DNA from: Pedobacter sp. MC2016-05
GTDB taxonomy: Bacteria > Bacteroidota > Bacteroidia > Sphingobacteriales > Sphingobacteriaceae
NCBI RefSeq assembly: GCF_026239735.1
Contig: NZ_JAPIVT010000001.1
Location: 372,001 to 436,000, forward strand
DNA length: 64,000 nucleotides
Reading direction: 5' to 3'
Of the stretch, positions 14,970 through 49,706 are shown piece after piece (the first letter of the stretch is position 1; each line of letters begins with the position of its first letter). The notes under the pieces are model-generated. The model did no database searches. It saw only the letters and a list, made by a program, of their open reading frames with translations, and had not been told where the DNA came from. The translations under genes and the position numbers were made by a program.

Positions 14970-15011
14970 CTTATCTTGTCAATTTACAGGTTATAAATTA
15001 TCCGATCAAAA

Positions 15012-16034
15012 TTGAAGAAAAAAACGACCATATACGATATAGCGAAAGCGCTTAACATCACCGTCTCTACCGTTTCGAGAGCGCTAAGTGGTTTCCCTGC
15101 AATAAGCGATGCAACAAAAAGAGCTGTCGTAGAAACGGCTAAAAAACTAAATTACAGTCCAAATAAGCTGGCTTCTGCACTCAAATCCGGCAAAACGCAT
15201 ATTATTGGTGTTATTGTACCGAGCGTCCAGGCTCATTTTTTTGCATCTATTATTCATCGTATCGAAGATGGTCTAAAAGATAGCGGCTATCGTGTAATTA
15301 TTTATCAATCGAATGAATCTGTAGAGAATGAAATAAACGGCGTTCGCACTTTGTTGGAAGCTCAAGTAGATGGCATTATGGCTTCTATGTCACTAGAAAC
15401 AGAAGATATTTCTCATTTTGCAGAAATTGTTAAACAGAATAAACCACTCATTCTGTTCGATAGGGTTCATGAAGATTTAGCGGTACCCACTATTACGCTT
15501 GATGATTTTAGAGCAGGTTATGTGGCCACGCAACATTTAATAGATAAAGGATATAAAAAAATTGCATTCGTAACCACTGTTCATCAGATTAAGATTTTTG
15601 ATGATAGGTTAAAAGGTTACAAGGCTGCTTTGGTAGATAATAATTTGCCTGTCCTTGATGGACATATTATTTTCGGTGGGTTATCGATTAAAGATGGGAG
15701 GTTTGGAGCAGGCAAGTTGATGCGCTGTAAAGATCGGCCTGATGCAATTGTTGCCGGAGATGACTTTACCGCTTTGGGCGTAATTAAAAAGCTTAAGGAA
15801 ATTGATGAAACGCCACCAGAAATTGGGGTAATCGGTTTTGCAAACGAAGCGTTTTCGGCTTACATTACACCTAATTTGTCTACCATTGATCAACATCCTG
15901 CTAAAATTGGCAAAGAGTGCGCAAAGATGTTTTTGAAAATGGTAAATCAGGAAGATCCTTACAAGATTATTGAGCACATTGTACTTGATCCGACTGTTGT
16001 AGAAAGGCAATCGACAGATAAAAAGGTAGATTAG
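15012..16034 (+). CDS. LacI/GalR-family transcriptional regulator (lacI-2), TTG start
   Basis: 340 residues. Helix-turn-helix TIYDIAKALNITVSTVSRAL, then the hinge and HIIGVIVPSVQAHFFASIIH opening the effector domain, with PLILFDRVHEDLAVPTI, DAIVAGDDFTALGV and EIGVIGFANEAFSAYITPNLS further on. The only start codon that leaves the helix-turn-helix complete is TTG at 15012, since an in-frame stop lies at 14994 and no ATG intervenes. The stop codon falls two bases from the stop of the convergent uxuA gene, both within a short hairpin. The pairing with uxuA suggests a uronate-responsive regulator, but which of the two LacI proteins reads which operator is open. Confidence 0.9.
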   Translation: MKKKTTIYDIAKALNITVSTVSRALSGFPAISDATKRAVVETAKKLNYSPNKLASALKSGKTHIIGVIVPSVQAHFFASIIHRIEDGLKDSGYRVIIYQSNESVENEINGVRTLLEAQVDGIMASMSLETEDISHFAEIVKQNKPLILFDRVHEDLAVPTITLDDFRAGYVATQHLIDKGYKKIAFVTTVHQIKIFDDRLKGYKAALVDNNLPVLDGHIIFGGLSIKDGRFGAGKLMRCKDRPDAIVAGDDFTALGVIKKLKEIDETPPEIGVIGFANEAFSAYITPNLSTIDQHPAKIGKECAKMFLKMVNQEDPYKIIEHIVLDPTVVERQSTDKKVD

Positions 16035-16035
16035 T

Positions 16036-17205
16036 CTACTCAAATAAGCTTTTTCGAATACCCATCTCCAACCCTCGAAGTTCAGCCAGGCCCTTTAATC
16101 GACCGATTGCAGAATAACCCGGGTAAGGATTTTTAACAAGATCGTCCATCATTTGATGTCCATGGTCTGGTCGCATCGGAATATCTCGATTCTCAGCTTG
16201 CATTAATTCAATAATTTCCTTTACTACCGAGTACATGTCGGCGTTTCCTTCTAAGTGGTTAGCTTCGTAAAAATTGCCTTCTTCATCTCGATGTGTACTT
16301 CTTAGGTGTAGAAAATGAATTCTCGATCCCAGTCTCTGAATCATACCAGGTAGATCGTTATCCGGTCTGGCGCCAAAAGAACCCGTACAAAAACATAAAC
16401 CGTTTGATTTTGCAGGTACACTGTCTATTATATATTGTGCATCACTTTCAGTGCTCATAATTCGTGGCAAGCCTAAAATAGGGTAGGGTGGGTCATCGGG
16501 ATGGATGGCCAGCTGCATACTTTGCCCATCGGCTATAGGTGTAATCTCTGATAAAAATTTCACCAAATTTTCTTTCAAACCTGCCGCTGTAATTCCCTTG
16601 AAGCCCTCTAGCAAAGCAAGCACTTGTTGGGGGGTGAACTGATCATTGCTGCCGGGTAAACCTTGCAGGCAATTATCTGTTAACGTTTTGCGATCCTCTT
16701 CATTTAAATGATTAAAATAAGCTGTTGCCTTTTCTATTTCTTCCGGTAAGTAATCTGTAGCTGCATTTGGTCTTTGAAGCAAAAACAAGTCAAATGCTAT
16801 AAAGGCCGTTTTTTCAAAGCGAAGCGCTAAGGCGCCTGTTTCGGTTGTGTATTTCAAATTGGTTCGCATCCAATCCAAAACGGGCATAAAATTGTACGTT
16901 ATAACCTTCACGCCGCACATAGCTAGGTTTGTCAAGCTTGTTTTATAATTATTTATCCAAGTTTGGTAATCTCCCGCTCGTTTTTTAATGTCTTCATGTA
17001 CTGGCAAGCTTTCTACTACACTCCAAACCATGCCGTGGTCTTCGATTTCTTTTTTTCTTTTTTCAATTTCTGCAGTTGGCCAAATTTCGCCTACAGGAAT
17101 GTGGTGTAAAGCTGTAACTACCCCGCCGCAGCCCGCTTGTTTGATATCGGTTAAAGTTACAATATCGCTTGGTCCGTACCAGCGCATGGTTTGAATCATT
17201 TTCAT
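16036..17205 (-). CDS. uxuA: Mannonate dehydratase UxuA
   Basis: About 389 residues from the start chosen here (ATG at 17205). Converts D-mannonate to 2-keto-3-deoxy-gluconate in glucuronate catabolism, in the cytoplasm, with a divalent metal. Family signatures are clear: [19 protein letters not shown] near the N-terminus, [44 protein letters not shown] and [13 protein letters not shown]. An upstream in-frame ATG at 17247 would add 14 residues ([14 protein letters not shown]) not found in the family and would translate through an operator-like site, so it is rejected. The gene is divergent from susC and shares an operator with it. uxaC and uxuB, needed for the preceding steps from glucuronate, are not in the window. 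Confidence 0.94.
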
Positions 17206-29608: not shown

Positions 29609-31534
29609 CTAGTCAATAAACTTCCACCTTACAAAAGCTTCCATCGCTTCGTATTCTGCCAAGCCTAGTTCATCATAAGCTTTTGCCGTTTCACGGTTTC
29701 TGTCTTCTGCACGTTGCCAAAATTCTCTTGCATCGTCGCCAGGAAAAACAGCCCTATCTTTCTGACTTTGGTGTTTAAATATTGCATTTCTTTTGCGTTC
29801 CAACTCCTGCGGAGAAATAGGCACAGCCATTTCAATCTCATGGGTTTCAAATTCATGCCAGGCACCACGATACATCCATAACCAACAATCTTGTGCCCAC
29901 GCTTCTGTTTTGCGAAGACGTGTCAATGCAGCTAAAATAATATTAAAACACACGATATGTGTTCCGTGAGGATCTTCAAAATCTCCGGCTGCAAAAACCT
30001 GTTGTGGTTTTACTTTCTGTAGGAGGTCAATTGTCAAATCGATGTCAGCATCGGTAACCGGATTTTTTTGATTTTTACCACTTTCATAAAAAGGTAGCGC
30101 CTGAAAATGAATATGGTCATCTTCCAATCCGCAATAACGAGCACCAGCTATCGCCTCACCTTTTCTAATCAAACCTTTAACGGTTTGTATTTCTGGGGTA
30201 TCAACCTGGTTAGGTTTCTTCTGATCGATAAAGGTTCTCATCTTATTGTATAATTCCGTTAGATATGAATTATCCATACCCATCTTTTCTGTAAAATCTA
30301 CATTAAATTCTACAAAACGAAGGGCATCATCGTCCCAAACCGCAGTATTGCCAGAGGTCTGGTAAGCCACATGAACATCATGTTTTTGATCCACCAAACG
30401 AATAAAGGTTCCGCCCATTGAAATTACATCATCATCTGGGTGCGGAGAGAAAATAATCACCCGTTTTTTAGCTGGTTCTGCTCTTTCCGGACGTTGAGAA
30501 TCATCCGCATTTGGCTTTCCACCTGGCCAGCCAGTAATGGTGTGCTGTAACTTGTTAAAAATATGGATGTTGATATTGTAAACCGGCCCTTTTTCAGTCG
30601 CCAATTGCGCCATACCATTATTGTTGTAATCGTCTTCAGTTAATTTTAAAACCGGTTTCTTCAATGTATTGGCCAGCCAAATCACTGCTTTACGAATCAA
30701 GTCTTCTGTCCAAACGCAATCTTTAACCAACCATGGGGTATCAAAACGGGTCAGTTCTGCTGCCGCCGGAGTATCTAAAATAAATTCAACATGCTCTGAA
30801 AGCTGAAGGTAAGTCGCCGGAACATCACCAGAGATTTCACCTTCTACCGCTTTTTTAATAATAGAAGCTTTTTTGCGGCTCCAGGCCATTAAGATAATTT
30901 CTCTGGCTTTAAAAATAGTACCAATCCCCATGGTAATGGCTTTGGTAGGTACAAACGTTTTTCCACCGAAATCCCGAGCGGCATCACGACGGGTTAAATC
31001 ATCAAGAGTAACCAAGCGTGTGCCGGAATTTGGTGCCGAACCAGGCTCATTGAAACCAATGTGACCCGTACGACCAATACCCAAAATCTGGATATCCAGT
31101 CCACCAAGATCTCCGATTTTTTTTTCGTAATCTAAACAAAATGCAGGAATATCTTCCAAAGGAAGCGTTCCGTCAGGGATGTGAACATTGCTTTTATCAA
31201 TGTCGATATGATCGAAAAGATTTTCGTTCATAAAAGTAACATAACTCTGTGCGGCGGTAGGCTGCATTGGATAGTATTCATCCAGGTTGAAAGTTATTAC
31301 GTTTTTAAAACTTAAACCCTCTTCTTTGTGCAGCCTAACCAGTTCGGCATAAACTGCAATGGGGGTAACACCTGTTGCTAAGCCCAGTACTGCAGGTGCG
31401 TTGTTTGCTTGTTTTGATTTAATGAGGTTGGCAATTCTGTGCGCCACATTAATGGAAGCAATTTTTGGATTTTCGAACACGCTCACAGGGAGTTTCTCGA
31501 AACGTGTCTCCTCCAGTAGATTTAATCTAGCCAT
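29609..31534 (-). CDS. nagB: Glucosamine-6-phosphate deaminase fused to PIG-L-type deacetylase
   Basis: 641 residues from ATG 31534; a longer frame to 31597 adds residues outside the family and is rejected. The N-terminal half (~1-300) is NagB: LGLATGVTPIAVYAELVRL, VITFNLDEYYPM, and GIGRTGHIGFNEPGS with the catalytic His and Glu. NagB converts glucosamine-6-phosphate to fructose-6-phosphate and ammonia. The C-terminal half (~370-600) is a PIG-L/LmbE metal-dependent deacetylase with VIIFSPHPDDDVISMGG and FEDPHGTHIVCF. This fusion is common in Bacteroidota and is usually annotated as NagB-like. Having both domains suggests a coupled deacetylation-deamination of an amino sugar, which is inference. 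Divergent from anmK. Confidence 0.92.
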   Translation of the reverse strand: MARLNLLEETRFEKLPVSVFENPKIASINVAHRIANLIKSKQANNAPAVLGLATGVTPIAVYAELVRLHKEEGLSFKNVITFNLDEYYPMQPTAAQSYVTFMNENLFDHIDIDKSNVHIPDGTLPLEDIPAFCLDYEKKIGDLGGLDIQILGIGRTGHIGFNEPGSAPNSGTRLVTLDDLTRRDAARDFGGKTFVPTKAITMGIGTIFKAREIILMAWSRKKASIIKKAVEGEISGDVPATYLQLSEHVEFILDTPAAAELTRFDTPWLVKDCVWTEDLIRKAVIWLANTLKKPVLKLTEDDYNNNGMAQLATEKGPVYNINIHIFNKLQHTITGWPGGKPNADDSQRPERAEPAKKRVIIFSPHPDDDVISMGGTFIRLVDQKHDVHVAYQTSGNTAVWDDDALRFVEFNVDFTEKMGMDNSYLTELYNKMRTFIDQKKPNQVDTPEIQTVKGLIRKGEAIAGARYCGLEDDHIHFQALPFYESGKNQKNPVTDADIDLTIDLLQKVKPQQVFAAGDFEDPHGTHIVCFNIILAALTRLRKTEAWAQDCWLWMYRGAWHEFETHEIEMAVPISPQELERKRNAIFKHQSQKDRAVFPGDDAREFWQRAEDRNRETAKAYDELGLAEYEAMEAFVRWKFID

Positions 31535-31673
31535 TTTATTTATGGTTTTTAATGTACGGAGCAGTAAATATAGAGAGTTATGCCCAATTTCTAACAAAGG
31601 TTATTTACTTTTATTGCAAGTATTTCCTTAAAATTCGATTAAGGCTATAAACAAACGTTTGATCAAAATTATC

Positions 31674-32870
31674 ATGAACATCCAAATTCAAAATCTTTAT
31701 CACAAGGCGCAAAAAGACCAGCGTTTAATTATCGGGTTAATGAGCGGGACATCAATGGATGGTTTGGATATTGCATTATGTGTGGTAAAGGGAAGTGGCC
31801 CCGAAACGGATATTAACATACTTGAATTTAAAACCGGAGAATATTCTGACGATTTCAGAGCAAAGATTAAAGCCATTTTTTCTAAAAAGCAAGTGGATTT
31901 AGAGTTGGTGTGTTTGATGAATGAGCACATTGCCAATACACATGCCGAGCTGATTAATCAGGCTTTGAAAGAATGGGGCTATACAAATGATCAAATTGAT
32001 TTTATTGCCAGCCATGGGCAAACCATTTTTCATGCGCCCAAATCTCTTCATCAACTTGTAGATTATCCAAATGGAACACTTCAGATTGGAGATGGCGATC
32101 ACATTGCTGTAAAAACAGGAATCATTACTTTATCTGATTTTAGGCAAAAACATTTAGCCGCTGGAGGTGAAGGTGCACCCTTAGCAGTTTATGGTGACTA
32201 TCTAATTTTTTCGAAGTGGGGAGAAGATCGGGTGATGCTCAATATTGGAGGTATCGCTAACTTTACTTATTTGCCTGGAAATCTAAATGCATCAGAAATT
32301 TTTTCAACTGATGTTGGTCCGGGGAATACCCTGATGGATCAATTTATGCAACACTACTACAATCAGTTTTACGATAACAATGGTGCTGTTGCGAAATCGG
32401 GTAAGTTAAATGAAGCCTTGTTGAAGGAATTATTAAAATGCGACTTTTTTGAGTTGGATTTTCCAAAAACTACAGGTCCTGAACTGTTTAATCTGGATTA
32501 CTTACAGGCAGCGCAAAAACAGTCTTCAACATTGGACTTAGCAACTGAAGAGGTGATGACCACATTATGCCATTTCTCGGCAGAAACCATTTCGAATGCT
32601 GTGAAACGATGCTTTGGCAACGAGCCTAATGCACAAATTTTCATGAGCGGTGGAGGGATGCATAATCCACTTTTGGTAGAACTGTTAAGAGAAAAGCTCC
32701 CTCATTGTAATTTCTTCACCACTGATGACTTAAACATTAATCCCGATGCAAAGGAGGCTGTTTTATTTGCTGTATTAGCCAATGAAACGATATGTGGTTC
32801 GCCCATAAATTTCGGCGATAGAAAAGGTGTACCTTCTATTTGCATGGGGAAAATAAGTTTGCCGGAATAA
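31674..32870 (+). CDS. anmK: Anhydro-N-acetylmuramic acid kinase AnmK
   Basis: 398 residues from ATG 31674; the TTG five codons earlier is not favoured. AnmK phosphorylates and opens 1,6-anhydro-MurNAc to MurNAc-6-phosphate during cell-wall recycling, in the cytoplasm. Signatures: LIIGLMSGTSMDGLDIAL (nucleotide-binding start of the sugar kinase fold), HGQTIFHAPKS, LNIGGIANFTYLPG, FSTDVGPGNTLMDQF, and IFMSGGGMHNPLLVELL. Length fits the family (~370-400). Divergent from the NagB-PIG-L fusion, with which it shares the amino-sugar theme. A murQ etherase is not in the window. Confidence 0.95.
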   Translation: MNIQIQNLYHKAQKDQRLIIGLMSGTSMDGLDIALCVVKGSGPETDINILEFKTGEYSDDFRAKIKAIFSKKQVDLELVCLMNEHIANTHAELINQALKEWGYTNDQIDFIASHGQTIFHAPKSLHQLVDYPNGTLQIGDGDHIAVKTGIITLSDFRQKHLAAGGEGAPLAVYGDYLIFSKWGEDRVMLNIGGIANFTYLPGNLNASEIFSTDVGPGNTLMDQFMQHYYNQFYDNNGAVAKSGKLNEALLKELLKCDFFELDFPKTTGPELFNLDYLQAAQKQSSTLDLATEEVMTTLCHFSAETISNAVKRCFGNEPNAQIFMSGGGMHNPLLVELLREKLPHCNFFTTDDLNINPDAKEAVLFAVLANETICGSPINFGDRKGVPSICMGKISLPE

Positions 32871-32955: not shown

Positions 32956-35900
32956 ATGGAAAAAAGTTACCTCAAATGGTCAACAAGATTTTTTGCAATT
33001 TTGTTGATCCCATTTCTGCTGCTTTTGTTTACAGAAATGGCACAGGCACAGACTAAACGCTATACCATCAGCGGTAAAGTTACCGATGCCGCCAACAATG
33101 ACCCGATTCCGGGTGTTGTTGTGAAAATCTTAAACACAAATTTAGCAACGAGTACCAACGCCAACGGTGGCTATTCATTTTCTGTTGATTTAGCTGCGGG
33201 AACTGCCCAAATTCAATTCTCGTTCGTGGGCTACAAAAGTAAAATCCAACCGGTAGGCCTAGCCACAGGCGATCAGGTTCAGGTAAACGCGACCTTAAGT
33301 GCTGATGCAGTTGGATTGGATGAGGTGATTGTTACGGGAACATCAGCTGGTACTACTCGGAAGGAACTTGGAAGTTATGTAAGTACGGTTAAGGGTGATG
33401 ATTTGAATAAAGCACCAAGCGGAAATGTACTTTCTTCTCTTCAGGGAAAAACTGCAGGCGCCCAGATTAGCCAGAATTCTGGTGACCCGGCGGGCGGCAT
33501 GTCAGTGCGCCTGAGGGGAATAAGTTCAGTAAATTCATCTTCTGAACCATTATATATTATTGATGGAGTAATTGTAAATAATTCGACTACTCGGGTTACC
33601 AATACCTCAGCAAATTACGATGGTGGTAATTTTGTAGGCAGCGTTGGCCAGAATAGAATGGTTGATATTAATCCTGCTGACATTGATCGCATTGAGGTTT
33701 TAAATGGTGCTGCAGCTGCCGCTATTTATGGATCTCGTGCAAACTCTGGTGTAATTCAGATTTTTACCAAAAAAGGTGCAAGTGGTAAAACCCAGGTAAG
33801 CTTTAATACCAGTTTGACCATTAGCGAGTTGAGAAAACAAGTTGAAGTAAATCAATCGCCTACTAAATTTGGTGGTTCGGTAAACTCATTTACGCAAGAC
33901 GTTATTCAAACGGCAATTGTTCCTCCTGCTACCACAGCCGCATTGCTTACCAATACTACTGCAGTTAACAGATATAATTATCAGGATTATATTTTCCAAA
34001 CCGGTTACGGAACTGATAATACGGTTTCGATAAGTGGTGGTAATGACAACACAAAATTTTATACCTCTGCCAGTTATTTTACCAACCAGGGAATTATTAA
34101 AAATACCGATTTTACACGTTACAATTTAAGGGCAAATGTAGACCAGAGAATAACAGATTGGGCTTCCTTGAGCGTGGGTATGAACTATATCCGCAGTGCA
34201 GCAAACGAAAAACCAGATGGAAACTCATTTTTTTCTCCAATGAATTCGGTTACTATTATTGGTAATTTTCACGATATATTTGCCAGAGATGCAAACGGAA
34301 ACTTATTGGCTGTAGGAGAACGGGGCAGAGTTAATCCCGTATCAGTGATAGAGGATATTAAGCAACGGCAGCAAACCAATAGAATTATCGCCAGTGCAAA
34401 TCTAAAATTGAATCCGGTTAAAAATTTAACATTAAATTTCTTAATCGGAGCTGATAATTCTGGTGCAAATGGATCAACTTATATTCCGCCTTTTGCTTAT
34501 AATGTTAATCCAGATTTCTTTGGGGGTGGCGCCGGACTGGATGGTACTTTAAACGGATACGCCAGTTCTGCAAGTAACGCTGCCTTTCAGTTTAATAATG
34601 AAATCAATGCAAATTATCAGGCCAAAATATCTGATCTGATAACCTCTACAACACAATTAGGCTACTCATTTCAGTATGAACAAACCCGTTATCAATTACT
34701 TAACGGTCGCGGTTTAGCACCTTTAATCGAAACCGTAAATGCTGCTGCTACCCAGTTGCCAAGTGTTGATGGCCGGACGCAACTTTCTGTAACTGGTGGT
34801 TACCTGCAACAAACATTTAAATATAAAGATCATTTCTTCTTAACGGGCGCAGTAAGGGTAGATCAATCTACTGTATTTGGAGCCGATAATAGAACACAGA
34901 CTTATTTTAAAGGAAACGCCAGTTACGTTTTATCATCAGCTGACTATTGGAAAGATCTAGGCGTTTCATCGTGGTGGGATACTTTTAAAATCAGAGCTGC
35001 CTATGGCGAATCTGGTAACTTAACTGGAATTGGCGCTTACGATCGAATCAATGCTTATTCTACACAATCATTTTTAGGGAGAGCCTCACTGTTCTCTAGT
35101 GCGCAATTGGCAAATGAAAATGTGAAACCAGAACGTCAACGCGAACTCGAATTAGGTACCGACATGTCGTTTTTCAAAAACAGGTTAGGCATTCAGTTTA
35201 ACTGGTATAATAAAAAAGTCAGCGATTTGCTAATAGCAAGTGTTACTGCTCCAACTATCGGTTTCTCGAGCTTTTTAGATAATATTGGCTCATTAAGAAA
35301 TAAAGGCATTGAGTTGGTTTTAAGCGGAACTCCTCTTAAAGCAAAGGACTTTAGCTGGAACACATCAATCGTGTTCAACAGAAATAGAAATGAAGCTTTG
35401 GATGTTGGTGGTTTAAGATTGTTTAGTACTAATCCAGGCGCTCCCGTGGCCATCATTAATGGAGAGGCAATTGGTGTTTTTTACGGAACATTTTTTGCCC
35501 GCAAACCGGATGGTAGTTTGTTAACAAATGCTGCTGGAATTCCATTACTTGAGCGAGGCATCCAAACATCGGCAACCACATTTACACCGCAACGTGATGC
35601 AAATGGTTTGCCAACCGGAACAACGCTAAGGAAGGTTTTAGGAGATCCAAACCCAGATTATACTGCTTCTTTCGTGAATGATTTCACTTACAAAAGATTT
35701 AATCTTCATGTTCAGTTAGATGCTGTTCAAGGAGGTGATGTTTGGAATGCAGATTGGAGAACCCGCCAAGGTGTTGGTAATGGAAAGGTAGCCGAAGCAG
35801 AACAATTAGGTCAACTGCCTAGGGGCTATGTTGCAGGAGTTTATGCTACAGAAGAATGGAGAATTGATGACGGATCTTTTGTTAAGCTTAGAGAAATTTC

Positions 35901-36105
35901 ACTGAGCTACAACATTGGGAAAGTGAAGTATTTAAGAGATTTAACCGTTACGTTAAGCGGAAGAAATCTGATTTCATGGGACAATTATAAAGGATATGAT
36001 CCAGAATTAAATTCAGGTGGCCAGTCGACGATATTAAGAAATATCGATTTTGGAGCTGTTCCAATTCCAAGAACCTTTAGTTTAGGTTTACAAGTTAAAT
36101 TTTAA
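32956..36105 (+). CDS. SusC/RagA-type TonB-dependent transporter (amino-sugar region)
   Basis: 1049 residues. Signal peptide to ~33 (TEMAQAQ), regulatory-like domain (YTISGKVTDAANNDPIPGVV), TonB-contact region (LDEVIVTGTSAGTTRKELG), plug (SVRLRGISSVNSSSEPLYII and NGAAAAAIYGSRANSGVI), then the barrel ending in SLGLQVKF. No STN domain. It is followed after 17 bases by its SusD partner. Neighbours anmK and nagB-PIG-L hint at an amino-sugar substrate, but no hydrolase lies in this operon, so the ligand is open. A consensus constitutive-type promoter precedes it. Confidence 0.92.
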   Translation: MEKSYLKWSTRFFAILLIPFLLLLFTEMAQAQTKRYTISGKVTDAANNDPIPGVVVKILNTNLATSTNANGGYSFSVDLAAGTAQIQFSFVGYKSKIQPVGLATGDQVQVNATLSADAVGLDEVIVTGTSAGTTRKELGSYVSTVKGDDLNKAPSGNVLSSLQGKTAGAQISQNSGDPAGGMSVRLRGISSVNSSSEPLYIIDGVIVNNSTTRVTNTSANYDGGNFVGSVGQNRMVDINPADIDRIEVLNGAAAAAIYGSRANSGVIQIFTKKGASGKTQVSFNTSLTISELRKQVEVNQSPTKFGGSVNSFTQDVIQTAIVPPATTAALLTNTTAVNRYNYQDYIFQTGYGTDNTVSISGGNDNTKFYTSASYFTNQGIIKNTDFTRYNLRANVDQRITDWASLSVGMNYIRSAANEKPDGNSFFSPMNSVTIIGNFHDIFARDANGNLLAVGERGRVNPVSVIEDIKQRQQTNRIIASANLKLNPVKNLTLNFLIGADNSGANGSTYIPPFAYNVNPDFFGGGAGLDGTLNGYASSASNAAFQFNNEINANYQAKISDLITSTTQLGYSFQYEQTRYQLLNGRGLAPLIETVNAAATQLPSVDGRTQLSVTGGYLQQTFKYKDHFFLTGAVRVDQSTVFGADNRTQTYFKGNASYVLSSADYWKDLGVSSWWDTFKIRAAYGESGNLTGIGAYDRINAYSTQSFLGRASLFSSAQLANENVKPERQRELELGTDMSFFKNRLGIQFNWYNKKVSDLLIASVTAPTIGFSSFLDNIGSLRNKGIELVLSGTPLKAKDFSWNTSIVFNRNRNEALDVGGLRLFSTNPGAPVAIINGEAIGVFYGTFFARKPDGSLLTNAAGIPLLERGIQTSATTFTPQRDANGLPTGTTLRKVLGDPNPDYTASFVNDFTYKRFNLHVQLDAVQGGDVWNADWRTRQGVGNGKVAEAEQLGQLPRGYVAGVYATEEWRIDDGSFVKLREISLSYNIGKVKYLRDLTVTLSGRNLISWDNYKGYDPELNSGGQSTILRNIDFGAVPIPRTFSLGLQVKF

Positions 36106-37624: not shown

Positions 37625-38371
37625 TTATAATATATTTAAATCTTTTGTTCGATAGTTTGCCAAAGCTTCGTTTTGGTGATCTAATTCTGTTATTAAATAG
37701 CTGATGCTTTCAATCGGGCAAACCCGTAGCCTCAAAGAGATATCCAGCTTTTCAGATATACACAGCACCGCAGTTTTTTTGGAACAGGCAATCATCGCCT
37801 TTTTTAATTGATTAATTTCCCAGTAAGTATCTGTCAAGCCATCTTCCGGGTGGATAGCACTGGTGCCCATCACACATAAATCAGCTTTGATTTCAGAAAG
37901 CTGTGTAATTACTTGTCCACCATAGGTAATCTGCGAATTTTTAGAAAACAAGCCGCCGATGAGTATCACTTCCAGGTTATCGTATTTTGCCAATTCGACA
38001 GCCACCAAAGGGCTAATGGTAAAAAAAGTTCCTGCGATATTTTGTGGAAGTTGTTTTACCAGTTCTAAAATAGTGGTCCCACCACCAGTTAAAACCACCA
38101 TCCCATCTTTAAAAAGTGAGGTCGCTTTTTTCGCAATTACTATTTTTATGTCCCTGGCATAAACCGTACTATCATCGAAAGAACTGTGGTATGATTTAGA
38201 CAATGCACCTCCATGAACTTTAAAAAGCAAGTCTTCATCTGCCAATTCTTGTAAATCTCTTCTTATGGTATCTTCCGATACATTAAGTAATTGAACCAAA
38301 TCAGAAGTGAGTACACGATTGTGTAAATTGATTTGGCGCATAATAAAATCATGGCGTTCTTTTTTGAGCAT
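37625..38371 (-). CDS. DeoR-family transcriptional regulator
   Basis: 248 residues, normal length. N-terminal DeoR helix-turn-helix (NRVLTSDLVQLLNVSEDTIR followed by RDLQELADEDLL and the VHGGAL end of the domain). The C-terminal DeoRC sensor domain includes LTGGGTTILELVKQLP, VILIGGLF and MGTSAIHPEDGLTD. Such regulators usually respond to a phosphorylated sugar. It is divergent from susC-3, and the promoters of susC-3 and susC-4 share 10-bp-spaced TGCG repeats that could be its binding sites. With nagB and anmK nearby, an amino-sugar phosphate effector is possible but unproven. Confidence 0.93.
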   Translation of the reverse strand: MLKKERHDFIMRQINLHNRVLTSDLVQLLNVSEDTIRRDLQELADEDLLFKVHGGALSKSYHSSFDDSTVYARDIKIVIAKKATSLFKDGMVVLTGGGTTILELVKQLPQNIAGTFFTISPLVAVELAKYDNLEVILIGGLFSKNSQITYGGQVITQLSEIKADLCVMGTSAIHPEDGLTDTYWEINQLKKAMIACSKKTAVLCISEKLDISLRLRVCPIESISYLITELDHQNEALANYRTKDLNIL

Positions 38372-38416
38372 ATTGATGTTTGGTTTGTACTAAAGTAAAA
38401 ATACTTTTCAATAATT

Positions 38417-38440
38417 TGCGTGTTTATGCGTTTTTAAGCA
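38417..38440 (+). promoter_or_regulatory. 10-bp-spaced TGCG direct repeats upstream of susC-3
   Basis: TGCGT at 38417 and 38427, and a degenerate AGCA at 38437, are separated by exactly one helical turn with T-rich fillers. The same arrangement occurs at 44231 before susC-4. Both sites are followed downstream by ATATTTAC-n5-TATTGC (38507-38525 here). Likely regulator-binding repeats, candidate DeoR targets. Confidence 0.5.
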
Positions 38441-38526
38441 ATTATATATCGTAATAGTTGCATGAAAATCTTTGTTATTTTGTTTTTTTATTAAAAAACA
38501 ATCAGCATATTTACATAACTATTGCT

Positions 38527-38550
38527 AAACATGCGTTAATCTGCATGTTT
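38527..38550. repeat. 8-bp inverted repeat in the susC-3 leader
   Basis: AAACATGC (38527-38534) pairs perfectly with GCATGTTT (38543-38550), with an 8-base loop. It lies 56 bases before the start codon and is not seen before susC-4. An operator or leader hairpin. Confidence 0.4.
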
Positions 38551-38605
38551 GGATAAGCCGGAAAACAAACAACTACAACCTTTTTAAACTTCTTACTAAC
38601 TAATT

Positions 38606-41600
38606 ATGATGAAAAAACTACTTTTTAGTTTTATCGGTATGGTTATGCTGCTTGCGCAAGTATTTGCGCAACAAGCCACCATTACTGGTAAGGTCACATC
38701 AAGTGACGGACCCATTCCTGGTGCATCAATTCGTGTAAAAGGAACCTCAATTGTATCGCAAAGCAATAGTGATGGAAACTTTACTATAAAAGCACTGAAA
38801 ACAGATGTACTTACTTTTTCTTACATTGGTTATAAAACCGTTGAAAGAACTGTAGGTAATAATACAACAATCAATGTTTCCATGCAAGCTGATGCCAGTA
38901 ACCTAAATGAGGTGGTAGTTACAGCCTATGGGATTGATCGTGATGTAAAATCTTTAGGTTATTCAACCCCAAAAGTATCAGGTGATGAGGCTGCTGCCAC
39001 TCAAAGAAATGACTTTTTTGGTTCACTACAAGGTCGTGTTCCAGGGTTGTCCATTAACAGTACAAATGGAAATCCAGGTTCTTCCGCTCAAATTGTTCTA
39101 AGGGGTTTTGTATCTATAAGTGGAGACAATAATGCCTTGATCGTTGTGGATGGTGTTCCTATAAATAACAGCACACTTAATCAAACAAGGGAGCTTGTTT
39201 CTGGTGCGGCGAACAGAGATCAGGATTATTCCAACCGAGGAATGGACATCAACCCGAATGACATTGAAAGCTATGTGATTATGAAAGGTCCTGAAGCTAC
39301 AGCATTGTATGGTAGTGCTGGTGCAAGTGGTGCAATTTTAATCACAACAAAAAAAGGAAAGGCCGGTAGAGGAAGCATTAACTACAATAATTCTTTTAGG
39401 GTAGAGGAATTAAATAAGTTCCCTGAAATTCAAACCAAGTACAATACAGGCCTCTCAAACGGCGTTTACAACATTGGTACGTCTAACTTTTTTGGTCCCG
39501 CATTTTTGCCAACTACTCCTCTTTATGATAATATGCACAACTTCTTTGAGACTGGATTTACTCAAAAGCACAATTTATCATTTGAAGGCGGTACAGATAA
39601 ATTCTCTTATCGCTGGTCTAACGAGTATACCGATTCAAAGGGAACGATTCCGACAACCAGTTATACAAGGATTTCTTCGCGGGTTACCGCAGTGGGGACT
39701 ATTTCACCCATATTAAAGCTAACTACAACTTTTAATTATATCAATTCGAAGAATGATAAGGCCAACAAGGGGGCGAATGGTTCTTTGCTTCAATTAATGC
39801 GTTTTAGTTCGGCCTACAATGTCCGTGATTATCAGGATGCAAATGGAAACCGAATTTTACACCATGCCAGTATCTATGCAGAGTTTGATAACCCTCTTTG
39901 GGATGTGGTTAAAAATGTGAATAATGATAAGGACAATCGTTTTATTGCCAACACCAATATTGAGCTGACCCCTACAAAATGGCTTAGGATTAATGGGATT
40001 ATTGGAGCCGATATCGCCAATACAAAAGGGCTTTCGGTATACCATGCACAATCTTATAGAGGTTCTGGATCTGCTGCAACCCCGACAGGTGGAACAGTTA
40101 TGACATATGATAAACTTGCAAAGGTTTTTAGTGGATCATTAACGGCGTCAGCCAAACATAAGTTCGGAGATTTTAACAATACTTATGTTATTGGTACATC
40201 ATTTTACGATTTTAATGCCGTTACAGATTCGCAGCGTGGAACAAACATGTATGACCCCAACTTTTACAGTATAAACAATACTTTACCCACCACCCAGCGA
40301 ACCCTTACTTACGTCAATCGGTATCGTACGGTAGGCGCCTTTGCCCAAGCTATTTTAGGGTATAAAACCCTGTTATATTTAACCTTATCAGGAAGAGTTG
40401 ACGGGGCTTCTAGATTAATGCCGAACAATCCATATTTCGCATATCCATCGGCTAGTTTGGCTTTTAATTTTACAGATATCGAAAAAGTGAAAGAAAATCT
40501 ACCATGGATGGATAGCGGGAAGCTGAGAGCATCCTTCGCATTAACTGGTAAAGAGCCTTGGAGAGAATATTCGACAGGTACAAATTATGAAGCCAAAAGA
40601 ACTACAGGAGGTGGCTATGCTTACTCATACTACGGAGGTAATCCAAACTTAAAGCCGGAAGTATCTCAAAATTTCGAGATTGGTACTGAAATGCAATTTT
40701 TAAAAAACAGGATCGGTTTAGACTTTAACTTTTATAATCTCTTGAGTAAAGACCAGATCATTAACCCCCGTTTAAGTTATGGAACCGGGTTTGTACTTGA
40801 AATGATGAATGGAGGTACGGTTCGAAATCGTGGTATTGAGGTGCAATTAACTGGTACGCCAATTAAAGGCAAAGATTTCAGCTGGAATACAACTTTCAAC
40901 TTTACGCGGAACCGTGGTGTAGTATTGTCATTAGCAAATGAACTTCCTGAGCTTTATGAATCAGATACCTGGGTTATCGGTGAAATCAGAAGTGCAGTGC
41001 ACCCGGGATATAGTACCGGAGCGATTAGCGGAACTAGGTTCGATAGAAATAATAATGGAGACATTTTAATTAATGTTTCATCTGGGCTACCGACAAGTTC
41101 TGATACACAATATTATCCTATTGGCGATAGAAATCCTAAATTCACATTAGGTTTTGTTAACAGGTTTAGTTACAAAAGCTTTAATCTTTCTTTTTTGTGG
41201 GATTTAAGATATGGTGGTGATGTTGTCAATGGTACAGAATATGCCTCTTATATAAAAGGAATAAGTGTTAAAACCCTTGATCGGGAATTACCGAGAGTAA
41301 TTACCGGAGTTTTAGCGGATGGCTTGCAAAATACAGCAAACCCAACGCCAAACACAATTGCGGTAACACCTTATTATAATTCGAACTATTATTCGTTAAA
41401 TGTTTCGCCAGAAATGTTTGTAGAAAGAAACATTAAAACACTTAGACTGAGAGACGTTACCTTAGGTTATGATTTTCCTCCATCATTGGTTAAGCGCATT
41501 AAATTTATTCAGAGTTTTGGCGCATTCTTAACTGTTACTGATTCGGTTTTGCTTACAAATTACTCTGGTGGAGATCCTGAGAGTAATGCAAATTCACCAG

Positions 41601-41689
41601 GCGTTGGTGGTATCGGCGGTTTCGGAATTGATTATGGTAATGTTGGAAAGCCAATCGGTTTCAACATTGGATTTAGGGTTAAATTATAG
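38606..41689 (+). CDS. SusC/RagA-type TonB-dependent transporter (DeoR locus, first)
   Basis: 1027 residues. Signal peptide (AQVFAQQ, ~22), regulatory-like domain (ATITGKVTSSDGPIPGASIR), TonB-contact region (NEVVVTAYGIDRDVKSLGYS), plug (IVLRGFVSISGDNNALIVVD and MKGPEATALYGSAGASGAIL), barrel ending in NIGFRVKL. No STN domain. The N-terminal region is closely similar to that of susC-4 (44384), which suggests an old tandem duplication of the transporter. Its stop is followed after 8 bases by an ATG of the SusD partner. Substrate unknown, since no hydrolase lies in the operon. Confidence 0.92.
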   Translation: MMKKLLFSFIGMVMLLAQVFAQQATITGKVTSSDGPIPGASIRVKGTSIVSQSNSDGNFTIKALKTDVLTFSYIGYKTVERTVGNNTTINVSMQADASNLNEVVVTAYGIDRDVKSLGYSTPKVSGDEAAATQRNDFFGSLQGRVPGLSINSTNGNPGSSAQIVLRGFVSISGDNNALIVVDGVPINNSTLNQTRELVSGAANRDQDYSNRGMDINPNDIESYVIMKGPEATALYGSAGASGAILITTKKGKAGRGSINYNNSFRVEELNKFPEIQTKYNTGLSNGVYNIGTSNFFGPAFLPTTPLYDNMHNFFETGFTQKHNLSFEGGTDKFSYRWSNEYTDSKGTIPTTSYTRISSRVTAVGTISPILKLTTTFNYINSKNDKANKGANGSLLQLMRFSSAYNVRDYQDANGNRILHHASIYAEFDNPLWDVVKNVNNDKDNRFIANTNIELTPTKWLRINGIIGADIANTKGLSVYHAQSYRGSGSAATPTGGTVMTYDKLAKVFSGSLTASAKHKFGDFNNTYVIGTSFYDFNAVTDSQRGTNMYDPNFYSINNTLPTTQRTLTYVNRYRTVGAFAQAILGYKTLLYLTLSGRVDGASRLMPNNPYFAYPSASLAFNFTDIEKVKENLPWMDSGKLRASFALTGKEPWREYSTGTNYEAKRTTGGGYAYSYYGGNPNLKPEVSQNFEIGTEMQFLKNRIGLDFNFYNLLSKDQIINPRLSYGTGFVLEMMNGGTVRNRGIEVQLTGTPIKGKDFSWNTTFNFTRNRGVVLSLANELPELYESDTWVIGEIRSAVHPGYSTGAISGTRFDRNNNGDILINVSSGLPTSSDTQYYPIGDRNPKFTLGFVNRFSYKSFNLSFLWDLRYGGDVVNGTEYASYIKGISVKTLDRELPRVITGVLADGLQNTANPTPNTIAVTPYYNSNYYSLNVSPEMFVERNIKTLRLRDVTLGYDFPPSLVKRIKFIQSFGAFLTVTDSVLLTNYSGGDPESNANSPGVGGIGGFGIDYGNVGKPIGFNIGFRVKL

Positions 41690-41697
41690 TGAACGAC

Positions 41698-43308
41698 ATG
41701 AAGAAATTATTTAAATTATATATTGCTGCGGCAGTATTATTGCTGATGGGGAGTTGTAAAAAATATTTGGATATTAATACTAATCCGGCTGTTCCTCAAA
41801 CAAGTAAAGCGGAGCTATTGCTTCCACCCATTCTTTTCCAAATGACAAACGGAACATCACAAGATTATCGTTTTATCTGGAAAATTACACAAAACCTAAT
41901 TGGCTCATCGACAGATGATGGCGCTTTGGCTTTTGAAAAACACACCTTTGTACGATCAAGTGATAATGGAGGGGTTATCTGGAGAATGACTTATGTTGAT
42001 CTTGGAATAAATCTGGAAAACCTCATTAACGATGCGGTAACCAATCAAAAATATGAATATGCGGCAATTGGTTATGCCATTAAAGCTTGGGCATATCAAC
42101 AAACAACAGATTTATATGGCCCAATTATCCTTGATGAGGCTTTTACCCCAGGATTGCTAAAGTTTCCTTATAAGGATCAACCAGATGTTTATGCAAAAGT
42201 GAGGTATTACTGCGAACAATCAATCAAATATTCCAATATGAAAAGCCCGCTAAATTATTCCACTCAATTGGCAAGTATTACGGGCGATGGTATTTACAAG
42301 GGCGATATGGCTAAATGGCGGAAGTTTGTATATGCAATTTATGCTTTACAATACAGTCACCTAGTAAACAAGCCTGAATTTAAAACCCAATATGCTGACA
42401 GCGTAGTGAAGTATACCAACCTTTCTTTTGCGAATGAGTCTGAATCGGCTACAGTTTACTTTTCTGCCGCCAGTACGGATGATACCAATCCATTCGGACC
42501 AACTTTAGGTTACATAAATACAGCAGGTACTACATCAACTTATTATGGTCGAATATCAACAACTATCTTAAATTATTTAGCGGGAGGAGTAAGAGGTACG
42601 CCGACTACAAATCCAACCAGCTCTGTTGATCCAAGATTGAGCAGGATGTTACCTGCAAGTACAGCCACAGCCACACTAGGACGTTATATTGCTGGTGTTC
42701 CAACGCAAGGGAGTAGTACGTCCGGCTTGCCAATAGTATTCGGATCTATTCCTGCTGGAGCAATAACATACAATGGCAAGTATATTTATGCTGATGCAGC
42801 AAGATATCCATTGATGACTTATTCACAATTACAGTTTACCAAAGCTGAAGCACTATTGTGGCAGGGAAAAGCAGCTGAAGCCTATACTGCATATAGAGCT
42901 GGTATTTCAGGTCACATGGATTTTTGTAACACTTATGGGAGGGCTTCAAAAGCGCCGGATCCTGTAATAACAACAGCAGAAATTGATGCTTATTTAGCAT
43001 CATCAGAGGTTGCTCAAAGCGCTGCAACACTCACCATTGCTGACATAATGGGTCAAAAGTATATCGCCCAATGGGGATGGGCAGGTTTAGAACAATGGTC
43101 CGATATCAGAAAATATCACTACGATCCATTAGTCTTTAAGCAATTTTATCAGATTCCAACAGCCGATCTTGCGCTAGGAGGAAAATATGCTTACCGGTTC
43201 AGGCCACGCTACAATTCGGAATATGTATGGAATCCTGAAGAGTTGGCTAAGTGGGGTGGTTTAGACATAGATTATATGACTAAGGAAACTTGGTTCAGTC
43301 AGCCGTAA
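41698..43308 (+). CDS. SusD/RagB-family nutrient-binding lipoprotein (PF12771-like)
   Basis: 536 residues from ATG 41698; a GTG at 41689 overlapping the susC stop is the alternative. Lipobox LLLMGSCKKYLDINTNP, a start typical of the second SusD subfamily. Supporting stretches are AELLLPPILFQMTNG, AIGYAIKAWAYQQTTDLYGPII and a C-terminal RPRYNSEYVWNPEELAKWGG. It binds the substrate imported by the upstream SusC. This subfamily differs from the classic SusD of the other pairs in the window, so the two pairs of this locus are not a simple recent duplication. Followed closely by the DUF4397 lipoprotein. Confidence 0.9.
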   Translation: MKKLFKLYIAAAVLLLMGSCKKYLDINTNPAVPQTSKAELLLPPILFQMTNGTSQDYRFIWKITQNLIGSSTDDGALAFEKHTFVRSSDNGGVIWRMTYVDLGINLENLINDAVTNQKYEYAAIGYAIKAWAYQQTTDLYGPIILDEAFTPGLLKFPYKDQPDVYAKVRYYCEQSIKYSNMKSPLNYSTQLASITGDGIYKGDMAKWRKFVYAIYALQYSHLVNKPEFKTQYADSVVKYTNLSFANESESATVYFSAASTDDTNPFGPTLGYINTAGTTSTYYGRISTTILNYLAGGVRGTPTTNPTSSVDPRLSRMLPASTATATLGRYIAGVPTQGSSTSGLPIVFGSIPAGAITYNGKYIYADAARYPLMTYSQLQFTKAEALLWQGKAAEAYTAYRAGISGHMDFCNTYGRASKAPDPVITTAEIDAYLASSEVAQSAATLTIADIMGQKYIAQWGWAGLEQWSDIRKYHYDPLVFKQFYQIPTADLALGGKYAYRFRPRYNSEYVWNPEELAKWGGLDIDYMTKETWFSQP

Positions 43309-43331
43309 ATTTTACATTTAAGATTATTAAC

Positions 43332-44129
43332 ATGAAGATATTTTCTAATTTATTCGCAGCACTAACCATCCTTATAGCAATATCTGGATGTACCAAAAAT
43401 GTTTTGGATTATGGCGAAGTTGAAAAACTGAACAGTGATCAAGCTTTATTAAAAGTAAACTATGCCTCTTATTATTATAACAATAGGGCGATAGCGATAA
43501 AAATAAATGATAAACGTGTGAGTAGTGTCATCACTGCTCGTACTCCGTTTCCTGGTGGAGGTTATAATACTGGTGGTAGTTCAACTGCCGATTTTTTAGC
43601 TGTAACTCCAGGAAACTTAAAGATTTCTATTATTTTACCTAAAAAGAAAGATGATGGAACAGATTCTCTTGTACTTTATTCTACTTCTTTTCAAATTCAG
43701 CCGGGTAAAAACTATGTGGCTCATATTACAGATACCGCTGAGACAACCAAAAGCGTTTTAACGGAAGAAAATTTTGTAAGGCCTGACACTGCCTATTGCA
43801 AATACAGATTTATCAATTTAATGCCTAATGTGCCTTCCGTTGATTTATATTATGGCACTAGTGCCACAGATAATACAAAGGATTCTCTTTTAGCTGGAAA
43901 TGTAAGTTATTTAAATATAACCAATGAAATCAGGCTAAGGTCTGCCCAATCTAAGACATGGAAAGTTAGGCCCGCTGGAGCAGCGATTACTACTGCTACC
44001 GTGTTAGCGAACTACACAAGTGCGAGCACCTTTCTAAATCAGCGGGTTTACACGATTTTTGCAAGCGGTTATAGCGGAATAGCGGCTGCGCCACGAAGGC
44101 CATACGTGTCATTCTTTTTGATTAGATAG
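43332..44129 (+). CDS. DUF4397 surface lipoprotein accompanying SusCD
   Basis: 265 residues from ATG 43332; an upstream TTG would overlap susD and is rejected. Lipobox ILIAISGCTKNV. Two similar beta-sandwich units are suggested: one beginning LLKVNYASYYYNNRAIAIKI, the other beginning CKYRFINLMPNVPSVDLYYG, the pattern of DUF4397. It sits in the slot where surface glycan-binding proteins (SusE/F-like) are found in other loci, 23 bases behind susD. A role as a third, glycan- or peptide-binding surface protein is inferred from position only. A strong terminator follows, closing the three-gene operon. Confidence 0.82.
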   Translation: MKIFSNLFAALTILIAISGCTKNVLDYGEVEKLNSDQALLKVNYASYYYNNRAIAIKINDKRVSSVITARTPFPGGGYNTGGSSTADFLAVTPGNLKISIILPKKKDDGTDSLVLYSTSFQIQPGKNYVAHITDTAETTKSVLTEENFVRPDTAYCKYRFINLMPNVPSVDLYYGTSATDNTKDSLLAGNVSYLNITNEIRLRSAQSKTWKVRPAGAAITTATVLANYTSASTFLNQRVYTIFASGYSGIAAAPRRPYVSFFLIR

Positions 44130-44150
44130 TCTAATTGCGCTATTGGTATT

Positions 44151-44182
44151 ATAAAGGCCAACCTCTCCGGGTTGGCCTTTAT
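44151..44182 (+). terminator. Intrinsic terminator after the DUF4397 gene
   Basis: A perfect 13-bp stem (ATAAAGGCCAACC at 44151-44163 with GGTTGGCCTTTAT at 44170-44182) and a 6-base loop. The stem's own TTTAT plus GGTTT forms the tail. Confidence 0.85.
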
Positions 44183-44224
44183 GGTTTAACTCAAATTGAT
44201 ATTCTCAAGTTGTTTAAAACTGGG

Positions 44225-44255
44225 TGCGTTTGCGCTTTTTTGCGTTTTTGTGCAG
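44225..44255 (+). promoter_or_regulatory. 10-bp-spaced TGCG repeats upstream of susC-4
   Basis: TGCGC (44231), TGCGT (44241) and TGCAG (44251) recur at exactly 10 bases with T-rich fillers, and one more TGCG lies at 44225. ATATTTAC-n5-TATTGC follows at 44308-44326, as upstream of susC-3. Candidate binding repeats for the DeoR regulator. Confidence 0.5.
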
Positions 44256-44383
44256 GGTACAGAAATATTGATAACTAAAATTTGTGTATTTCAAAAAATA
44301 TTTCGTGATATTTACTTCAATATTGCCGTTTTGTGCAGTATTAAAAAAGCTAATCATTCAAACAATATTCTAAACTTACGTTT

Positions 44384-47852: not shown

Positions 47853-49706
47853 ATGATGAAGATGAAATATTTCAAATATATATATGGCCTGCCTCTTTTG
47901 GCAAGTCTATTAATTACTTCTTGCAAAAAAGATGTTTTGGATCGTCCACCATTAACAGATTATGTCGATGGCCAATTCTGGCGGGGTGAGGATGATATTC
48001 GGATGTATGCAAATGCTTACTATCCAAATTATTTTAATGGCTATAATTCTGGGTTTGGGGTAGATTATACTCCTGTTAGAGGGTATACTTTTTCTGATGA
48101 TGTAACAGGGAAAAACGTTCAAACCAATTTTGAAAGCAGTGTACCAACCAGCAGAGGATCAACTCTTGAATCGGCAGATTGGTTAGGTACTTATGCTGGT
48201 CCCACCTGGGATTTTGCCTGGGTCCGCAAGTCAAATGTAATGATCAATAGATTGGACAATGTGGCTAAACCTAAAATTTCTACCGAGGCTTATAACCATT
48301 GGTCGGCTGTGGCAAGGTTTTTTAGAGGTTTTGAATACAGTCGATTGGTAAGCGTGTTTGGCGATGTTCCATATTTTGATAAAGAAGTTTCGGATACGGA
48401 TTTAGCTACTTTATATAAAGATAGAGATGCTAGAGGAGTTGTGATGGATAAAGTATACGATGACTTTAAATTTGTGATGGCCAACATGCGTGAAAATGAT
48501 GGTGCACAATACTTGAACAAGTATATCGCCGCGGCATTTATCTCTAGATTTATGCTCTTTGAAGGAACTTATGAACACTATCACGGTTTAGATGCTGCAA
48601 GAGCTAAAAAATATCTTGAATTTGCAGTAGAAGCTGGAGATTATGTAATCAATAGCAATAAATACAATTTTACCCGCGATTTCAAATCTATTTTCTCAAG
48701 TGATAATCTGGCCGGTCATCCAGAGGTGCTATTGTACAGGACTTATGATGCCGCTTTGGCGGTAACCCATAGTATTGGCTCATATCAAAATGGAACAGAA
48801 GTCGTTGGTGTAGATGCGAACCTGGTTTTAGTTAAATCTTTTTTGTTAAATGATGGTAAGGTTTGGCAAAATTCTGCTGTTACTGGGGCAGATTCATTTA
48901 CCATTGCCGATTTGGTAAAAACCAGAGATCCACGATTTGAAGCGTCATTTTATGATAAAGCACTCATTCCCTCGGCCACTTTGTTGTATGGCTTTAAGTT
49001 CGCTTCAAGAGATGCACTTACTTATATTGGTAAAACGTATCCGGCAGCTTGGGGAAGTAATACCAATACCAGCGATGCGCCAGTAATCCGTTTGGCAGAA
49101 GTGGTGTTAAATTGGGTTGAGGCAAAGGCTGTTTTGGCACAGTATTATGGGGCGGCGGCAGTTACTCAGGCAGATTTAAATAAATCGGTAAATGCGATTA
49201 GAAACCGTCCGTTAGATGCTGCTGCAATTGCAAAAGGCATTTTGAAAACGGCTCCGCTTACCATTGGCGCTCTACCCGTAGATCCTGCCCGCGATACTGA
49301 TGTTCCGGATTTGATATGGGAAATTCGTAGAGAAAGACGCATGGAATTTGTTTTCGAGCATACCAGGCTATTAGATTTAAAACGCTGGAAGAAATTGAAT
49401 AACATGAACTTTAGTACGAATCCAGATTATTTCTTAGGACCATGGGTAAATGTACAAACAGAGGCACCAGCCTATTTAACTTCAGCGAATGCAACAGCCG
49501 GGAATGTTAAAGTAAAAAAAGCCGACGGTTCAATTGTAACTTACAATGGAACAAACGCTGCGGCAATGGTGGGTTATTGGATGGTAACCAATGCAACAAA
49601 CCGAAATGCATTTACCGACAGAGCTTATTTGGCGCCAGTTGGTCAGGCACAAATTATTCAATATCAAGAAAAGGGTTATAAACTTACCCAAACCACAGGT
49701 TGGTAA
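47853..49706 (+). CDS. SusD/RagB-type lipoprotein (partner of susC-4)
   Basis: 617 residues. Lipobox LLITSCKKDVLDRPPLTDY. SusD features: the N-terminal DIRMYANAYYPNYF, AVARFFRGFEYSRLVSVFGD in the helical scaffold, APVIRLAEVVLNWVEAKAVL, and the C-terminal WEIRRERRMEFVFEHTRLLD followed by LKRWKKLN. Together with the preceding SusC it forms a complete import pair. A terminator follows and closes the operon. No enzyme accompanies the pair. Confidence 0.92.
   Translation: MMKMKYFKYIYGLPLLASLLITSCKKDVLDRPPLTDYVDGQFWRGEDDIRMYANAYYPNYFNGYNSGFGVDYTPVRGYTFSDDVTGKNVQTNFESSVPTSRGSTLESADWLGTYAGPTWDFAWVRKSNVMINRLDNVAKPKISTEAYNHWSAVARFFRGFEYSRLVSVFGDVPYFDKEVSDTDLATLYKDRDARGVVMDKVYDDFKFVMANMRENDGAQYLNKYIAAAFISRFMLFEGTYEHYHGLDAARAKKYLEFAVEAGDYVINSNKYNFTRDFKSIFSSDNLAGHPEVLLYRTYDAALAVTHSIGSYQNGTEVVGVDANLVLVKSFLLNDGKVWQNSAVTGADSFTIADLVKTRDPRFEASFYDKALIPSATLLYGFKFASRDALTYIGKTYPAAWGSNTNTSDAPVIRLAEVVLNWVEAKAVLAQYYGAAAVTQADLNKSVNAIRNRPLDAAAIAKGILKTAPLTIGALPVDPARDTDVPDLIWEIRRERRMEFVFEHTRLLDLKRWKKLNNMNFSTNPDYFLGPWVNVQTEAPAYLTSANATAGNVKVKKADGSIVTYNGTNAAAMVGYWMVTNATNRNAFTDRAYLAPVGQAQIIQYQEKGYKLTQTTGW

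Follow-up and report, generated by a model that had tools for sequence, protein, structure and literature searches.

Probable operator arrays at the deoR locus

This work concerns the promoters of two susCD operons of Pedobacter sp. MC2016-05, located in a stretch of 64,000 nucleotides of contig NZ_JAPIVT010000001.1 (positions 372,001 to 436,000; the window, numbered from its first letter). A gene for a DeoR-family regulator (deoR) is divergent to susC-1, which is followed by susD-1, a gene for a DUF4397 protein and then susC-2/susD-2. Direct repeats of 10 bp stand in front of the regulator and candidate target genes, and before each susC gene they flank a promoter-like core as an upstream array, O1, and a downstream array, O2. 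The features of the control regions are:

37625..38371, minus strand: deoR, DeoR-family regulator gene, divergent to susC-1 (Pfam HTH_DeoR 2e-15, DeoRC 4.4e-31)
38390..38397, minus strand: putative -7-like box of deoR, TACTTTAG, assigned from the sequence and conserved columns, 19 bp from O1
38417..38446, plus strand: O1 of promoter 1, three 10-bp units TGCGTGTTTA TGCGTTTTTA AGCAATTATA, 29.6 bits
38507..38514, plus strand: promoter-like core ATATTTAC of susC-1; ATATTTAC or ATATTAGC in 44 of 46 relatives
38520..38525, plus strand: TATTGC, noted earlier; not conserved (columns 38516-38529, mean identity 0.568)
38532..38551, plus strand: O2 of promoter 1, two 10-bp units TGCGTTAATC TGCATGTTTG at 38532 and 38542, 21.9 bits
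38606..41689, plus strand: susC-1, TonB-dependent receptor (Pfam)
44231..44260, plus strand: O1 of promoter 2, three 10-bp units TGCGCTTTTT TGCGTTTTTG TGCAGGGTAC, 29.5 bits
44308..44315, plus strand: promoter-like core ATATTTAC of susC-2; ATATTTAC in 12 of 16 second promoters
44324..44343, plus strand: O2 of promoter 2, two 10-bp units TGCCGTTTTG TGCAGTATTA at 44324 and 44334, 11.0 bits
44384..47851, plus strand: susC-2 (Pfam)

An earlier note on this DNA had described TGCG-type blocks repeated at one-turn spacing before both susC genes. TGCG is indeed present at 38417, 38427, 44231 and 44241, while the third units carry AGCA (38437) and TGCA (44251). A further TGCG, at 44225, does not fit the register; it lies 6 bp ahead of the first unit of O1 in promoter 2. 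The O2 arrays, absent from that note, are found below the core of both susC promoters; their consensus is TGCGttattnTGCGtgttt, with two units, sometimes three, just downstream of the core. O2 of promoter 2 is the weakest of the four sites (E 1.22 with model R1), and the relatives L046, L048, L050 and L068 carry TGCTGTTTTATGCGGTATT at this position. The block is missing from the susC promoters at 32956 and 17455, as had been noted: window sites of at least 9 bits are confined to the two promoters of the deoR locus, and the promoter at 17455 has a lone TGCA-n6-TGCA that scores below 9 bits.

The note had also proposed that ATATTTAC, five bases and TATTGC form one element below both arrays. This combination is present at both promoters (38507/38520 and 44308/44321, five bases apart in each case), twice in the window and never in 100 shuffles, but it is no shared element: it recurs in 0 of 46 orthologous promoters 1 and in 3 of 16 second promoters, and was therefore rejected. 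At susC-2, TATTGC (44321-44326) is the first half-site of O2. Since conservation peaks at O1, core and O2 and is lowest in the TATTGC stretch, we treat ATATTTAC as a promoter-like core and the TATTGC of susC-1 as unconserved sequence. Across the 46 loci, the core of promoter 1 reads ATATTTAC in 22 and ATATTAGC in 22; by itself, ATATTTAC shows no enrichment in the window, with 7 occurrences against 5.14 expected. For susC, a canonical -7 box was rejected, because TATTTACT matches, by eye, only three of the six fixed bases of the consensus TAnnTTTG (PMC9723704, consulted in part), and we hence term the susC core merely promoter-like. For deoR, TACTTTAG would serve as a -7-like box with, by eye, one mismatch to the fixed bases of TAnnTTTG; its majority form in relatives is TACATTCG.

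Conservation of the operator pair

We found 47 deoR-susC loci, of which 46 named Pedobacter regions were counted; L084 was left out, as the 5' end of its deoR is missing. The column-identity alignment has 46 rows including the window, without L070 and L084, and the weight matrix omits O1 of L082 and P1 of L070 (misregistered or partial). Model R1 was built from 51 of 109 listed sites. Weight matrix and R1 were trained on the loci that they then scored, and thus the scores describe the sites and do not test them.

Conservation of the repeats in orthologous loci had been set as a test by the earlier note, and the arrangement O1-core-O2 is present in 45 of the 46 deoR-susC regions, with both operators at 9 bits or more; at 14 bits both are found in 44. 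Mean column identity is 0.878 for O1, 0.839 for the core and 0.864 for O2, compared to 0.57-0.70 in the other stretches. Of 16 loci with a second susC promoter, 13 carry the pair there, as does the window (none in L056 and L057, only O2 in L070), and the pair also precedes second receptors that are merely 38-39% like the window susC-2. Within the 46 orthologous promoters, TGC[GA] follows TGC[GA] at 10 bp 132 times and at 20 bp 45 times, and at 9 or 11 bp not once; equal lengths of susC coding sequence contain no such pair at 10 bp. This conservation across species, and not rarity of the bare pattern, is why we judge the repeats to be real. TGCG-n6-TGCG occurs twice in the window with 1.08 expected, and as 31 of 100 shuffles reach two or more, the bare pattern is not significant in a single window.

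The receptor genes behind this block are variable. Measured against the window susC-1, the susC gene that comes first behind deoR is 84% or more like it in 11 of 47 loci, 58-62% in five and 38-49% in 27; in three it is of the susC-2 type (in L070 across an insertion) and in one it resembles the window receptor at 32956. Over L039-L085, the operator-core-operator block is kept while the susC behind it varies between species. It looks as if the promoter had stayed in place while receptors were exchanged.

Co-occurrence with the DeoR orthologue

By its domains, an N-terminal HTH_DeoR and a C-terminal DeoRC sensor domain, both above the Pfam cut-offs, the deoR product is a DeoR/GlpR-family regulator. 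It stays below the cut-off of all 10 NCBIfam subfamily models listed (AgaR, GlpR, SrlR, UlaR, DeoR and others; for AgaR 98 bits against a cut-off of 260) and is in no named DeoR subfamily. No solved structure matches it by sequence at E<=0.001. The nearest named locus is that of Pedobacter sp. Leaf41, with a DeoR 98% identical. Among the genes scanned in 29609-54599 (32956-36105 lay outside the scan), deoR is the sole regulator.

In 60 genomes of the genus, scanned with strict filters and 117 candidates scored per genome, a site at E<0.01 is present in 44 of 49 genomes with a DeoR orthologue and in one of 11 without it (Fisher 4e-7); at E<0.001 the counts are 37 of 49 and 1 of 11. Outside the genus, nine of 31 homologue regions (53-58% identity) show a pair of 10-bp units in forward orientation in the 350 bp before deoR, and base shuffles of these regions yield 0.00-0.03 pairs per region. 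Only forward-strand pairs were counted; in L037 and L219 a pair lies on the reverse strand, and the pair of L220 is a weak TGCA pair. Unit pairs occur in 4 of 4 anmK-linked regions, in 7 of 10 regions with susC alongside and in 0 of 7 nagA-linked regions. In a tree of 39 DeoR proteins, the repeat-bearing label needs six changes, five of them forced by well-supported branches, against 13.1 in shuffles, and the trait is not of single origin on this tree.

A link to nagA was rejected, since seven nagA-linked DeoR homologues (L031, L032, L035, L038, L208, L213 and L218; 55-57% identity, next to nagA-like genes) are without repeats. PF01979 had 10 matches in the own genome. Two tandem DeoR copies are found in L133 (14838-15581 and 16011-16754), 73% and 75% like the window DeoR.

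Spacing of the two operators

The geometry was read wherever both operators were present, in 69 promoters (46 beside deoR, 14 second promoters, with the window contributing to both groups, and nine extra ones). The latter come from 11 further regions chosen by their R1 match, so that the rate of pairs among them is meaningless. The O1-O2 distance is 93 bp in six promoters, 102-104 bp in 10 and 111-115 bp in 53, with 94-101 and 105-110 bp empty; the window promoters have 115 and 93 bp. With about 10.4 bp per turn, these classes are close to 9, 10 and 11 helical turns. Wider spreads are seen between O1 and the deoR start (40-60 bp) and between O2 and the susC start (55-129 bp). In the 104 class the core is 15 instead of 25 bp from O2, and in the 93 class O1 is 77 instead of 89 bp from the core. 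About three spacing shifts look independent: the 104 class, the class of the window, L046, L048, L050 and L068, and L132. A circular test with 29, 20 or 14 spacer clusters gave similar R (0.83-0.87) at periods from 10.0 to 11.0; the species are related, and the choice of unit can shift the spacing by 10 bp in L079, L080, L139 and L143. The phasing statistic was set aside as uninformative, with R about 0.87 at any period from 10.0 to 10.5. Helical phasing of O1 and O2 is thus suggestive only.

Regulon and neighbouring genes

In the own genome, R1 found 17 matches at E<=10. As 150 of 2251 first-look candidates were scored, this search was not exhaustive. Among the matches are the four sites described above, and the other 13 have E 0.27-9.7; eight of these lie inside reading frames, L091, L092, L099 and L100 in gaps, and L097 is ambiguous. 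None of the 13 was convincing, and a wider regulon in this genome was rejected. As the four sites are the only convincing ones that R1 finds, the predicted regulon consists of deoR and the two susCD operons. The site L092 (C5:126137-126156, minus strand, 12.9 bits) lies 174 bp before another susC, has no O2 partner and is possibly a third target.

The other genes of the locus are:

29609..31597, minus strand: fusion of a nagB-like gene with a PIG-L deacetylase (PRK02122, 1066 bits; Glucosamine_iso and PIG-L domains)
31659..32870, plus strand: anmK, anhydro-N-acetylmuramic acid kinase (NF007149, 646 bits, cut-off 616)
41689..43308, plus strand: susD-1 (SusD-like_2; Pfam)
43290..44129, plus strand: DUF4397 protein gene, after susD-1 (Pfam)
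47853..49706, plus strand: susD-2 (Pfam)

Some contigs are too short to show them, but anmK adjoins in 39 of 47 loci and the nagB-like/deacetylase fusion in 37. These neighbours point to amino sugars of the cell wall or of chitin. In L150, from another genus, a 16.8-bit site at 6491 lies 69 bp before anmK (6560), between anmK and a divergent nagB-like gene, a position that would connect the regulator with amino-sugar metabolism. In L151, again from another genus, a gene for a NamZ exo-muramidase (7120-8364) is divergent to a DeoR homologue (8609-9352), with a 10-bp unit pair upstream of deoR.

Discussion

We consider it likely that the repeats are tandem operators by which DeoR represses itself and both susCD operons from both sides of the promoter. 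Each susC promoter has O1 with three 10-bp units upstream and O2 with two, sometimes three, just downstream of the core. Unit after unit would be occupied by a DeoR subunit, all from one helix face. Since O1 overlaps the presumed -33 region of deoR, DeoR may repress its own gene. O2-bound DeoR would block the start of susC, and given the register of O1 and O2, the oligomers bound at both might touch across the promoter. An amino-sugar phosphate derived from cell-wall or chitin-type sugars, which the DeoRC domain and the gene neighbourhood suggest as effector, would bind to this domain and release the DNA, turning on the two SusCD uptake systems. Side-by-side binding of DeoR had already been suggested in the earlier note. 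Conservation, co-occurrence with the orthologue and the RhaR-type motifs (PMC3870299, seen in part) speak for it, and what had to be given up is the ATATTTAC-n5-TATTGC unit.

Several observations weigh against this repressor model. The co-occurring features are neighbours and co-inherited, such loci served to train the model, and the cut-off was picked after the results had been seen. Five of the 49 genomes with an orthologue have no site at E<0.01 (G140, G172, G177, G182, G200), and G197 has a site and no orthologue, its 3 kb locus L129 being without a deoR or susC match. More distant DeoR copies of the genus fare worse: L145 (55% identical) has no 12-bit site and L144 (70%) a weak one. The helix-turn-helix recognition segment is nearly identical in nagA-linked DeoR proteins whose upstream regions are without repeats, which speaks against a simple protein-site code. 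No site of at least 9 bits is present at the window anmK or nagB-like gene, where a GlcNAc/MurNAc (NagR-like) regulon would be expected to have operators. In G196, good sites precede an esterase gene (L134) and a gene for a protein with a Por secretion tail (L135). An O1-O2 pair before a phosphodiester glycosidase (NAGPA)-NamZ-susC run in L132, a site before NamZ in L140 and the arrangement in L151 hinted at NamZ as a core target. This was rejected, because NamZ genes seldom carry a site: 50 of 52 NamZ regions scanned have no 14-bit site within 900 bp and no known pair further up, and a 14-bit site within 900 bp was seen only in L140.

That the repeats reflect chance or the compositional bias of AT-rich promoters has practically no probability. 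The bare TGCG pair is expected about once in the window, and a genome search with a 21-base pattern at up to three mismatches found no excess (31 matches, 34 for the reversed control). Against this, matches with 0 or 1 mismatch are restricted to the two susC promoters, and conservation in 45 of 46 loci with a strict 10-bp spacing contradicts a chance origin. The operators could instead belong to another trans-acting regulator encoded elsewhere, with deoR just adjacent. Sites or pairs in L132, L138 and L140 lie on other contigs, far from a deoR orthologue, from which we conclude that the factor acts in trans; together with the G197 site and the presence, about 12 kb from the L132 pair, of a less similar DeoR copy (51%), this would suit such a regulator. 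We regard it as improbable, since the sites co-occur with this deoR over 60 genomes, in all 46 named loci O1 keeps its 40-60 bp to the deoR start (L070 and L079 have just two units there) and direct repeats of 10-11 bp are a known form of DeoR-family motif (PMC3870299, in the part consulted). It also seems unlikely that DeoR activates from O1 and that its repressor role is confined to deoR or O2. Activators usually sit where the O1 units do, about 57-89 bp upstream of the core, and an L-fucose operon activator belongs to the same family according to its NCBIfam name, but O2 just below the core occupies a repressor position and is conserved as well as O1.

A more serious alternative, to which we give a little less than an even chance, is that DeoR acts locally only, the O1-O2 spacing being inherited or set by the distance between operator and RNA polymerase, and that there is neither bridging nor looping. 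In line with this, a single spacer class accounts for 53 of 69 promoters, mostly through common descent. The circular test gains nothing in sharpness at 10.4 bp over 10.0, 10.5 or 11.0 (R 0.84-0.87 with 29 clusters), repeat-unit choice moves readings by 10 bp and DNA of about 100 bp is stiff. On the other side stand the skipped distances, the looser spacing of O1 to deoR and of O2 to susC, and the altered O1-core and core-O2 distances within the 93 and 104 classes. Two separated operators at one promoter, a trait of looping repressors, are present in 45 of 46 named regions. We put forward tentatively, as less likely than not, a helically phased double-array operator: two tandem DeoR arrays would clamp one promoter by bridging it directly over some 9, 10 or 11 turns, and would form a portable cassette that is kept while SusCD receptors are exchanged between species. 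If true, the cassette would hold diverse receptors under one sugar-phosphate switch.

SusCD loci can be controlled by SusR, by hybrid two-component systems or by pairs of extracytoplasmic function (ECF) sigma and anti-sigma factors. The system described here likewise concerns control of SusC/SusD uptake genes in Bacteroidota, but with a DeoR-type regulator and operators on both promoter sides. DeoR-family regulators of the AgaR, FruR or SugR type have repeat-type operators and share the DeoRC sensor domain, whereas the Pedobacter targets are SusCD outer-membrane systems. The DeoR-family regulator RhaR has motifs of imperfect direct repeats with a period of 10-11 bp, and a four-unit array upstream of the regulator gene is shifted by RhaR and released by L-rhamnulose in vitro (PMC3870299). 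Family and repeat period are thus alike, while the unit is TCGAAA in Chloroflexus and TGCGtgtTTT here, and the pathway is another; two arrays flanking one promoter are not mentioned in the consulted text of that paper. In Escherichia coli, the operators between which DeoR forms a loop are separated by about 600 bp and lie at the tandem promoters of the deo operon (PMC8053113, consulted in part). Repression by a DeoR protein that bridges separate operators would be common to both systems, bridging in Pedobacter being inferred, but here the distance is 93-115 bp, the promoter is single and each operator is an array. The Pedobacter system probably works like those of RhaR and E. coli DeoR. The arrangement is of a known kind and the site itself seems to be new; none of the literature matches listed deals with operators of a DeoR regulator before susC genes of Pedobacter.

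The sites provide a defined operator, open to experiment, through which a DeoR-type repressor would act on SusCD genes, and the predicted regulon is small. A conserved promoter before differing receptors hints at how Bacteroidota could swap an outer-membrane receptor with control unchanged, and the natural series of O1-O2 spacings can be used for testing bridging. The exception among the deoR-susC regions, L070 (Pedobacter frigidisoli), offers a natural test of O1 loss for susC. Here, an IS1595-type element with 26-bp inverted ends lies between O1 and the promoter core (reverse-complement coordinates 10873-16590) and splits the control region, leaving a two-unit O1 beside deoR and the core with O2 before a gene of the susC-2 type.

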